Both the position numbers and the translations under genes were made by a program. This document shows positions 49,918 through 53,606 of a DNA stretch of 64,000 bases, piece by piece (position 1 is the stretch's first letter; each line of letters starts with the position of its first letter). The stretch is from NCBI GenBank assembly GCA_030427505.1, contig JAUICH010000003.1:62001-126000 (forward strand), in the 5' to 3' direction. This stretch comes from Verrucomicrobiia bacterium (GTDB lineage: Bacteria; Verrucomicrobiota; Verrucomicrobiia; Verrucomicrobiales; DEV007). The notes below the pieces were generated by a model that saw only the letters and a program-made list of their open reading frames with translations, was not told the DNA's origin and searched no databases.

Positions 49918-51747
49918 ATGAGCGACTTTGAAACCCTCGTAAGTCGTCTGGAGGAAAGCCCCGAAGATTGGGACACCAGGCTGGATATTGTACACGCCTA
50001 TGCGCACGCCGGGATGATGGATGAAGCCCATCAGGTCCTTGCGTCCGCCCCGGAGCACGCGGAACCGAACGCGGCCCAAGTGCATCGGATCGAGTCGCTG
50101 ACCGGCGAGCCCTGGCATCAGAACGGCCACGTTCAGGTGGCCCACGCGGTTCAGGTATACGAAGACAGCGAAGAGGAAGCCGTGGAGGCGCATCCCGTCG
50201 CCGTGGCGGAGGAGGAAGATCCTGCCCCGGTTTCGCCGGCGGAAGGAGAGGAACCCGTCGTGCCGATCGGGCATGCGGTGAAGCTGCGCCCTCCGGGCGC
50301 TGGAGAGGCCGATGAAGATGCCGTGGTTCCCCTGACGTCATCCGTGGCCATCCAGGCGGATGGCACGGAAGGAGAAGAACTGACTGCCGCCGGAGTAACG
50401 GCCCCGGACGCGGCCTATGGGCAGGAGGAAGAGGAAGCAGATGAAGGATTGACCGTGTGGCAGTGGTGGCGGCCGAAAGATCGCCAGAACAGCGCCGCGC
50501 AGAAAGTCTCCGCGCTCACTTTGGCCCTGATCGCGCACATCGGGCTGGGTGCGCTTCTGACCGTCTTCATCATTTCCGTTCCCCGGAAGGAGCCTCCGCA
50601 GATCGTGGCCAGCGTGCAGCCGCTGTCTCAGGAGAACATTCTGGAAGAGCAACAGGTCCAGAAAGTAATGAAGACCACGCCGTCCAGCGCGGCGGCGCAG
50701 CCGACCTTTGCCATTGCGTCCCAAGCGGCTTCCAACATTACGGTGCCGGAGTTTGACAAGACGGAAGTGCTGGACGTCACCACGGGGGTCACTGGCCTGA
50801 GCGTGGGTTCTGGGCTCAGTTTCGGCGCGGAAGGCGCGCTTTCTGAAGTGAACTTCTTCGGCATCAAGTCCGCGGGCGAGCGCATTGCTTTCATCATCGA
50901 CGCGGAAAAATACATGCTGGAGGACAAGAAAGGCGGCATTCCGGCCTACACCAAGGTAAAGGACGAGATTGGCCAAATGCTGGCCGGCCTGAACCGGGGC
51001 ACGGCATTCAATATTCTGATGTATGAGGACAAGCGGGTATCCACCTTCCGGGACGAACTGGTCGCCGCCACGCCATCGAATGTCCGCCTGGCCATTGACT
51101 GGATGAGCCCCATTAACACGGTCTATGAGAACCTGGGTATCGGCAAGGACGGTTACAATTCCTGGGCCGTGAAGTCCCAGGCGGAGCCCATCCAGTTCAA
51201 AGATCTCTCCGGCTATTCAAAGGCTATCCAAGCAGCGTTCGAGATGGATGTGAACGCTGTCTTCGTTATTTGCAGCGGCTGGCGAAACTACAGCAAATCT
51301 TACTCGAAAGAGGAACGCGAAAAGTTCGAGAAGAAAACAGAAAGGGAGTGGGGCCCGAAAGAACAGGAAGCCTGGAATAAGGCCACCGCCAAGGCCAAAG
51401 ACTGGCTTAAGAAAGAGAACCAGAAGCGGAAGGAAAAAGGCATTCCGCCAAAGGTGGTCGCCAGCATGGGCGGCATCATCCGGCAACTTACCCCTGGCGT
51501 AAAGAGCAAGCCAAACCTGCCCAACTACGGCCCCGATCATGTGGAAGACTACACGCGGAACCTGGTGACCCTGCTCTATCGCCAGCAGAACAAGCCTCGC
51601 CCGGAACTGCACATCGTGCTTTTCCTCGGGGAAGACGAGAATGATGTGAGGTACGAAGATCACTTTCAAAACCTGGCGCGCCGAAACAGTGGCCGGTTTA
51701 AGGTGTTACAAGGGATGGCCGCCTTGCAAAACGTGACGGAAAGATGA
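49918..51747 (+). CDS. vWA-like membrane protein, degenerate copy
   Basis: A 609-residue protein. Layout: a short helical N-terminal region (SDFETLVSRLEESPEDWDTRLDI) of tetratricopeptide-like character, an acidic/proline-rich spacer (about 80-175), one membrane segment (about 196-217, ALTLALIAHIGLGALLTVFII), a periplasmic linker, and a vWA-like domain from about 310. The domain starts FIIDAEKYML in place of the metal-ion-dependent adhesion site D-x-S-x-S, so that site has been lost. It is the first of a tandem paralog pair; the following gene retains the site. The protein may be structural rather than ligand-binding. Confidence 0.75.
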   Translation: MSDFETLVSRLEESPEDWDTRLDIVHAYAHAGMMDEAHQVLASAPEHAEPNAAQVHRIESLTGEPWHQNGHVQVAHAVQVYEDSEEEAVEAHPVAVAEEEDPAPVSPAEGEEPVVPIGHAVKLRPPGAGEADEDAVVPLTSSVAIQADGTEGEELTAAGVTAPDAAYGQEEEEADEGLTVWQWWRPKDRQNSAAQKVSALTLALIAHIGLGALLTVFIISVPRKEPPQIVASVQPLSQENILEEQQVQKVMKTTPSSAAAQPTFAIASQAASNITVPEFDKTEVLDVTTGVTGLSVGSGLSFGAEGALSEVNFFGIKSAGERIAFIIDAEKYMLEDKKGGIPAYTKVKDEIGQMLAGLNRGTAFNILMYEDKRVSTFRDELVAATPSNVRLAIDWMSPINTVYENLGIGKDGYNSWAVKSQAEPIQFKDLSGYSKAIQAAFEMDVNAVFVICSGWRNYSKSYSKEEREKFEKKTEREWGPKEQEAWNKATAKAKDWLKKENQKRKEKGIPPKVVASMGGIIRQLTPGVKSKPNLPNYGPDHVEDYTRNLVTLLYRQQNKPRPELHIVLFLGEDENDVRYEDHFQNLARRNSGRFKVLQGMAALQNVTER

Positions 51748-51785
51748 ACGTTTCTGGCGGCAATCTTGACTAAATTGGGGCCGCC

Positions 51786-53606
51786 ATGACGAAGGAAGAC
51801 TTGGAACGGCAATCGGAGTTTCTCGCCGTCATCCCGGAAGACTGGGGGACGCGACTGAAGCTGATTGAGGGGTTTCTTGACCACGGAGACGTGGAAGAAG
51901 CGCGCCGTCTTGTCCGGGAATCCCCCGACGATCACCCCGTGCCGCCTGAGGTTCAGTACCGGCTGCACGAATTGTTCAGCCATGCCAACGCCACCGCGCG
52001 CGGAGCGGAAAGCGCGCGTCAGGAAGAGGCAACGGAGGAGACGGGAATCCCGGAAGCGGAGGAAAGCGTGTCTTTCGTGGTTCCCGAGGCGGAGGAAGTA
52101 GCCCCGGCGTATGAGGTGGAGACCGGCTCCATTGTGGATTTGGACTCCGAATATTCTGAGGAGTTTCCAGAAGAGGATAAAGAAGCGCTCCCCGTGGCGG
52201 TCGCGGAGGCCATTGAGGTAACGGATCCAGAGCCAGATGAAGCGCTTCCAGCCGCGAAAGCCATTCCACTGCCGGACGCCATCGCCGAGGAGGTGGCGGA
52301 GTATGAAAGATCTCTCCTGCCACAGGGGCGCCAGAACAATGCTTCACAGAAGATTTCCGCATTGACCATTGCGCTGCTGGCGCACGTCGTCTTCGCGTTT
52401 TTGACCGCGGTCATTTACGTGGCGGTGCAACGTCCTTCCCCGCCGCAGATCGTGGCGGCCCAGGTCGTTCAGGACCGGGACTACACCATCGATCAAAAGG
52501 TCATTCAAAAGGATGCCGATCCCAATGTGGCCAGCGCCTCGGCCCAGCCGGTTTTCGCGCTGAGTTCGATGGCCCCTTCCGATGTGACGGTGCCCGAATT
52601 TGATAAGTCTGAAGTGATAGACGTGACCTCGTCCATGATTGGAGTGGGCGAGCGGGGGATGGGATTGAGTTTCCATGGGGACAATCAGCAGTCGCAGATC
52701 AATTTCTTCGGTATCAGTTCCGGCGGTGACCGGGTGGCCTTCATCATCGATGCCTCGCCCTCCATGCTGGTGGACGAAAAAGGCGGCATGTATGCTTACG
52801 ACCGGGTCAAGGACGAGATTGGTCAGATGCTGGCCGGCCTGAACCGGGGCACGTCCTTTGATATCTACCTCTACCACGGGAAGCGAGTCGCCGCGTTCCG
52901 GAGCAATTTGGTGCCCGCTCTGCCGTCTAATGTTCGGGAAGCCGTGGCCTGGCTCGATCCCTTGAACCGGGACTATGGCGCTCTAGGGCTTGGGAATGAT
53001 TACAGTCTCGTCACGCTGAAGGACGAGATCGAACCCATCAAGAAGACGGAACTTTCCGGTTACACCAAGGCCATTCAGGCGGCTTTGGAACAACGGCCCA
53101 ATGCGATATTCGTGATCGCCAGCGGATACGAGCGTTTGCGGGAAGATCCACCGAAGGACATGAAGCGCACGGGCGGAGCCGCGGATCCTGGTGAAGTCAA
53201 GCGTTGGAACTCGGCGGTGCAACGGACCCGGGCCTGGTTAAAGAAAGAGAACGAGGCCCGAAAAAGCCGTGGCATGGCGCCGAAGGTGGTCGTCAATTTC
53301 AATGCGCTGGTGCGGCAGGTCACCGGACAGGCCCCGCCCCAGGGCGGCGGGGGTGGAGGGATGCGGCCCAAATTCTATGAGCCTCGTGACATTGAGGTGC
53401 ACATCTCAAACGTCGTGAATACCTATTTCGACAGCATGGATCTGCGCCTGCCGTCCATTAACATGGTCGTTTTCGTGGGCGAAGGAGAGAAGATCGGTGA
53501 ATTCGACCGGCACTTTGGAAACATCTCCCGCCGCAACCAGGGAAAGATGAAAATCTTGGAAGGCCTGGCCGCCCTGGAAAACGTCACAGGCAACGCGCCT
53601 AACTGA
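51786..53606 (+). CDS. vWA-like membrane protein, intact MIDAS copy
   Basis: A 606-residue paralog of the preceding gene, 38 bases downstream. The same layout: a helical N-terminus (TKEDLERQSEFLAVIPEDWGTRL), an acidic spacer with glutamate-rich runs, a membrane segment (LTIALLAHVVFAFLTAVIYV), a linker, and a vWA-like domain with FIIDASPSMLVDEKGGM, a D-A-S-P-S metal-dependent adhesion site near residue 321. VKDEIGQMLAGLNRGT is shared with its neighbour and is nearly identical at the DNA level. A glycine-rich loop (PPQGGGGGGM) lies near the C-terminus. Relatives sit near ExbB/ExbD or TonB-type genes in some Verrucomicrobiota, but none is here. Confidence 0.78.
   Translation: MTKEDLERQSEFLAVIPEDWGTRLKLIEGFLDHGDVEEARRLVRESPDDHPVPPEVQYRLHELFSHANATARGAESARQEEATEETGIPEAEESVSFVVPEAEEVAPAYEVETGSIVDLDSEYSEEFPEEDKEALPVAVAEAIEVTDPEPDEALPAAKAIPLPDAIAEEVAEYERSLLPQGRQNNASQKISALTIALLAHVVFAFLTAVIYVAVQRPSPPQIVAAQVVQDRDYTIDQKVIQKDADPNVASASAQPVFALSSMAPSDVTVPEFDKSEVIDVTSSMIGVGERGMGLSFHGDNQQSQINFFGISSGGDRVAFIIDASPSMLVDEKGGMYAYDRVKDEIGQMLAGLNRGTSFDIYLYHGKRVAAFRSNLVPALPSNVREAVAWLDPLNRDYGALGLGNDYSLVTLKDEIEPIKKTELSGYTKAIQAALEQRPNAIFVIASGYERLREDPPKDMKRTGGAADPGEVKRWNSAVQRTRAWLKKENEARKSRGMAPKVVVNFNALVRQVTGQAPPQGGGGGGMRPKFYEPRDIEVHISNVVNTYFDSMDLRLPSINMVVFVGEGEKIGEFDRHFGNISRRNQGKMKILEGLAALENVTGNAPN

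Follow-up and report, generated by a model that had tools for sequence, protein, structure and literature searches.

A tandem pair of vWA-headed membrane proteins with a TonB-like neck and a degenerate metal site in a Verrucomicrobiia bacterium

Rpn10 and TFIIH p34 have vWA domains that are reported to work without a MIDAS metal, and the Bat aerotolerance proteins are encoded in a MoxR operon. The two adjacent genes described here, which encode the proteins P1 and P2, recall both systems. They share with Rpn10 and TFIIH p34 the same fold (Z about 14 to 15.6), which in those proteins serves protein-protein roles, although Rpn10 and TFIIH p34 are eukaryotic and have no membrane tether. With BatA and BatB they share the arrangement as tandem paralogous vWA membrane proteins.

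Closer to the pair are the vWA force transducers, proposed in 2025 by Williams-Jones et al. from the PVC group, which according to the main text of PMC12204202 have a conserved His and lie beside tolQ-like and tolR-like genes; their function is given as unknown, and the words MIDAS and metal are absent from that main text. P1 and P2 resemble this class, as the main text presents it, in their His-bearing helix, vWA head and occurrence in Verrucomicrobia and probably in their linker, and distant relatives of their family lie behind one ExbB-like and two ExbD-like genes. Unlike the class so presented, the family lacks motor genes alongside, carries an N-terminal fused TPR-like region, includes a tandem A/B pair, has lost much of the metal site and shows Ala in place of Ser in the helix motif. 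That motif, S-x3-H-x6-L-x3-S, is described in PMC12215075 as common to TonB and TolA, with an essential His that contacts the motor; in Escherichia coli TonB, His20 makes the essential contact with ExbB. Like TonB and TolA, P1 and P2 combine a single membrane helix bearing this His with an extended, presumably periplasmic linker and a globular head, but the head is a vWA domain instead of the C-terminal fold and about 200 residues precede the helix. A literature search found no paper joining Verrucomicrobia, the VWA domain and ExbB, and none fitted degenerate-MIDAS tandem vWA proteins in bacteria among the matches listed.

A paralogous pair kept in order

The window, meaning the whole stretch of 64,000 nucleotides that was analysed, holds the two genes on the same strand with a gap of 38 bp. 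BLASTP aligned P1 and P2 with 247 of 623 aligned positions identical (40%, E 8e-137). Their parts are as follows.

49918-51747, + strand: P1, upstream paralog, type A, 609 aa (ORF, BLASTP; outside the B clade in the careful tree)
49948-50088, + strand: P1 N-terminal TPR-like segment, residues 11-57 (Pfam TPR_19)
50140-50487, + strand: P1 acidic spacer, about residues 75-190 (read from the translation)
50509-50589, + strand: P1 membrane helix, residues 198-224, with A-x3-H and the His207 codon at 50536-50538
50593-50622, + strand: P1 PPQIVASVQP behind the helix, candidate motor box (conservation; motor box idea from the main text of PMC12204202)
50839-51744, + strand: P1 vWA fold (AlphaFold2 model, fold matches)
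50899-50916, + strand: P1 degenerate site D-A-E-K-Y-M (sequence, alignment)
50914-50937, + strand: P1 family loop MLEDKKGG (Asp, Lys, Gly and Gly invariant in 50 of 50 rows)
50956-51000, + strand: P1 copy of the near-identical stretch VKDEIGQMLAGLNRG (42 of 45 bases)
51307-51582, + strand: P1 helical stretch inside the vWA fold, about residues 464-555 (DSSP of the model; invariant Trp, Glu-Asn and Arg)
51786-53606, + strand: P2, downstream paralog, type B, 606 aa (ORF, BLASTP; basal in the B clade, 99/99)
52356-52436, + strand: P2 membrane helix, residues 191-217, with A-x3-H and the His200 codon at 52383-52385
52440-52469, + strand: P2 PPQIVAAQVV behind the helix, candidate motor box (conservation)
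52689-53603, + strand: P2 vWA fold (AlphaFold2 model, fold matches)
52749-52766, + strand: P2 site D-A-S-P-S-M, with the last MIDAS Asp replaced by Ser further on (sequence, alignment)
52764-52787, + strand: P2 family loop MLVDEKGG (alignment)
52806-52850, + strand: P2 copy of VKDEIGQMLAGLNRG (42 of 45 bases)
53148-53441, + strand: P2 helical stretch inside the vWA fold, about residues 455-552 (DSSP of the model; invariant residues)

An earlier note on this DNA had described paralogs with a common plan (helical start, acidic spacer, one membrane helix and vWA-like domain), and both the translations and the models bear this out. The acidic spacers, read from the translations, are alike in composition more than in sequence. 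The gene upstream of the pair encodes a cation efflux protein, the gene downstream reads by eye as dehydratase-like, and a promoter and terminator scan gave nothing above shuffles.

The near-identity at the DNA level that had also been reported is real: VKDEIGQMLAGLNRG is protein-identical in P1 and P2. Third positions match at 12 of 15 codons in this stretch versus 118 of 233 at the other identical residues of the two proteins, a mild and post hoc excess in a segment chosen beforehand for its identity. The stretch is also conserved at the protein level across the family. At LNRGT, P1 shares its Gly with the B rows, whereas Gln, Thr or Ala stands there in the rest of the aligned A rows: possibly a small gene-conversion tract.

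Both types occurred together at eight loci (the window, L055, L056, L057, L058, L061, L068 and L085), and at all eight the A gene lies upstream and the B gene last on the same strand, so the pair is kept in relatives. Most B loci in hand have no A gene nearby. In the careful tree, from which four rows were dropped, B formed a clade (99/99) with P2 as its first branch; of the A rows, ten grouped together (99/99) and the others stood at the base without resolved order. A quick tree made beforehand, with a more distant outgroup and one fragment dropped, placed the A rows, P1 included, in a group of 16 (100), with B forming no group. A tree of the vWA domain alone united the 15 degenerate rows used (100) beside clades with canonical sites, one neighbouring canonical clade being nearly all ExbD-linked.

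Of the 57 genomes searched, 14 (the organism's own among them) hold close relatives (more than 300 bits), and every one of these belongs to the organism's family; by their titles, all 37 loci of the species collection are from Verrucomicrobiota. Loci mostly had different flanking genes, near relatives such as L036 and L038 or L037 and L042 being exceptions, and genomic context therefore gives no function. One locus (L036, 6168-13365) has four consecutive family genes, three A and one B, one of them without the TPR start; the array can therefore grow. The organism's own genome also holds three consecutive TPR-neck-vWA genes with intact metal sites (L051 on contig C4, 5576-12743), which means that tandem arrays occur in the canonical branch as well.

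The vWA head and its metal site

Pfam and NCBIfam gave no vWA match in P1 or P2, Pfam gave none in the 23 members of family alignment A1, and phmmer of P2 against PDB sequences found nothing but weak similarity to unrelated molecules, for the most part DNA polymerases. Despite these silent family libraries, the vWA-like call made from the letters was right for both proteins. AlphaFold2 models of the C-terminal regions (pLDDT 85.0 for P1 and 84.1 for P2) have the vWA fold and matched solved vWA domains with Z 18.3 over 166 residues at 2.1 A for P1 and Z 17.9 over 169 residues at 2.4 A for P2; matches at Z about 18 include the vWA domain of inter-alpha-inhibitor heavy chain 1. The invariant Trp, Glu-Asn and Arg lie in the helical stretch between two strands of this fold.

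The site motifs of P1 (D-A-E-K-Y) and P2 (D-A-S-P-S) stand as previously read, and we tallied each position across 50 aligned family rows (16 type A and 34 type B). All 34 B rows begin the motif with Asp, and 12 of the 16 A rows with Glu. At the fifth residue of DxSxS, Ser occurs in a single row of the 50, the P2 of the window; the residue is Tyr or Phe in all 16 A rows and other than Ser in 33 of the 34 B rows. Of the 50 rows, one retains the last MIDAS Asp and 49 lack it, among them all B rows, P2 included (one B row is gapped there). Both P1 and P2 have Ser at the MIDAS Thr position, as read by eye from alignments, and neither has the full MIDAS set of D-x-S-x-S, Thr and Asp. Canonical relatives in the same genome (L051) carry D-x-S-x-S and Asp-Gly at the last position. 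The family loop ML-x-D-x-KGG retains its Asp, Lys, Gly and Gly throughout the 50 rows.

The metal site is thus degenerate family-wide, among A rows and B rows alike; a single loss at the root of the family, before A and B separated, is the probable history. With the fifth Ser and the last Asp each found in only 1 of 50 rows, P2 is an outlier and not a conserved intact partner. Since P2 is the earliest branch of the B clade, it may have kept DASPS from an older site, and partial metal binding by P2 is possible. The earlier note had proposed a duplication followed by conversion of one copy into a non-binding partner. The tandem duplication holds, and so does the conservation of the degenerate copy as such, since the upstream copy never regains a full site; the contrast between one binder and one converted copy finds no support, as nearly all B rows are degenerate too.

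A conserved neck, mostly without adjacent motor genes in the family

The necks of P1 and P2 consist of a helix with SALT-x-A-x3-H followed by PPQIVA. By its sequence, the helix is a TonB-like anchor, with the His in a TonB-like setting, a feature that the earlier note had overlooked. All 50 family rows have the His, as do 49 of the 54 mapped rows of a distant set (62 proteins; length at least 300 and fewer than 300 bits), the 8 unmapped rows having S-x3-H by pattern. In alignment A1, P220 is invariant and Q221 nearly so (P2 numbering). The remainder of the motif is looser: among the 49 readable close rows, H-4 is Ala in 47, H+7 is Leu in 26 and H+11 is Ser in none. The family therefore lacks the full SHLS motif, which the main text of PMC12204202 ascribes to "many" members, not all. 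An acidic residue in the membrane helix was found in none of the 50 mapped close rows (one row starts past the helix). The linker from helix to head spans about 85-90 residues, where the class in PMC12204202 has some 100 residues that include a motor-box strand; its modelled part has pLDDT below 50, and the PPQIVA patch falls outside the models. By eye, the Verrucomicrobia ExbBs showed no recognisable counterpart of Ser34 and Trp38, the contact pair of E. coli ExbB.

Among the 62 distant relatives, which mostly have a canonical vWA, ExbD lies directly upstream in 23, and 20 of these also have ExbB within 2.5 kb. The count of 23 comes from rebuilt ExbB and ExbD profiles and equals the first count, although one rebuilt row (L117) may be a wrong ORF, and it scores as negative four distant rows with less than 800 bp upstream. 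Close rows were motor-adjacent in 1 of 50 cases; the window and 49 of the 50 were not. The exception, L089, lies directly behind ExbB-ExbD-ExbD (Pfam 103, 87 and 82 bits, all above cut-off) and is a long branch whose place is unsettled. Divided by N-terminus length, none of 57 long proteins (46 close, 11 distant) was motor-adjacent versus 17 of 47 short ones, counts that rest on the first profiles with wrong-strand ORFs at some loci; the TPR-fused form may for this reason have left the motor. The organism's genome gave 9 ExbD and 10 ExbB-type matches, none on the window contig (C43) among the matches listed. One of the motor-linked distant relatives belongs to this genome: on its contig C6 (L103, 6165-7715), ExbB-ExbD-ExbD is followed by a protein with the same neck and a squalene-hopene-cyclase-like alpha/alpha-toroid head, which is head swapping on one neck.

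At the N-terminus, Pfam TPR_19 matched P1 at 25.7 bits (cut-off 25) and 19 of the 23 members of A1 at E<=1, and P2 had no Pfam match anywhere. The charge pattern ahead of the membrane helix suggests that the N-terminus lies inside the cell. A TPR-like module also occurs as a short stand-alone ORF in two genomes that hold the family as well (L053, 5879-6325; L054, 5707-5967). Five loci (L092, L093, L096, L171 and L173) have an Hsp70 gene immediately upstream of a TPR-neck-toroid gene, which in all of these but L173 is followed by a TPR-neck-canonical-vWA gene; a cytoplasmic TPR may bind Hsp70.

Force transducer or static scaffold

We consider it rather probable that the paralogs P1 and P2 transmit force from a proton motor in the manner of TonB and TolA, a vWA head replacing the TonB C-terminal domain. 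They are best read as a motor-orphan, TPR-fused, duplicated and metal-independent branch of the vWA force transducers as the main text of PMC12204202 presents them, with membership likely: the conserved His (50 of 50) and the vWA head are present, adjacent motor genes are absent from the window, and adjacency is not strictly defining because that text calls the genes "often" adjacent. The His-bearing helix would dock, in trans, on an ExbB/ExbD motor whose genes lie elsewhere in the genome, a step suggested by the conservation of the His and the context of relatives. The linker and head would reach into the periplasm, the linker carrying force or movement to the head, and the head may grip an envelope partner without metal through the MLxDxKGG loop and the family-specific helical stretch. 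The cytoplasmic TPR could recruit or sense a cytoplasmic partner, and A and B may act together, perhaps as a heteromer.

The main competing explanation, which we regard as unlikely, is that the helix is a mere anchor and the motor has been lost, leaving P1 and P2 as a static scaffold that links cytoplasmic partners of the TPR to envelope partners of the vWA domain. The absence of motor adjacency in all 57 long-N-terminus proteins versus 17 of 47 short ones, the lack of ExbB and ExbD on the window contig among the matches listed and the Ala for Ser in the S-x3-H motif are in its favour. Yet it is not evident why a static anchor would need a His that never varies among 50 rows; the PPQIVA patch is also conserved, and a like helix sits next to a motor both in L089 and in the alpha/alpha-toroid protein of the same genome (ExbB-ExbD-ExbD). 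That every row has the neck His despite the loss of the MIDAS suggests that selection keeps motor docking and not metal-dependent ligand binding.

The arrangement put forward in the earlier note, a heteromer of a metal-binding P2 and a converted, non-binding P1, now appears improbable. P2 has DxSxS where P1 does not, the tandem order is kept at all eight loci and, with P2 as the first B branch, DASPS may be retained; against these points, only one of the 34 B rows, P2 itself, has the fifth Ser, no B row, P2 included, retains the last Asp, and most B loci in hand lack an A gene nearby. Most improbable of all is a pair of the pore-helix kind, the second family of PMC12204202, whose vWA proteins replace ExbD inside the TolQ ring. 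Heterologous pairs are typical of that family in the main text, but none of the 50 mapped close rows has an acidic helix residue (one starts past the helix) and no tolQ-like gene is adjacent; because the helix lacks Asp, the pair falls outside this TPH-vWA class.

Returning to the force-transducer reading, we tentatively extend it, as a possibility that we hold to be somewhat doubtful, to a transducer kit in Verrucomicrobia, in which one TonB-like neck bears swapped heads (canonical vWA, metal-free vWA and alpha/alpha toroid) and the metal-free branch departed from the motor operon, gained a cytoplasmic TPR by fusion and was duplicated into an A/B pair that uses shared ExbBD in trans. The family offers a direct test case for motor genes and transducers working in trans and for head swapping on one neck. 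If the kit exists, one type of inner-membrane motor would drive several envelope jobs and link them to the cytoplasm.
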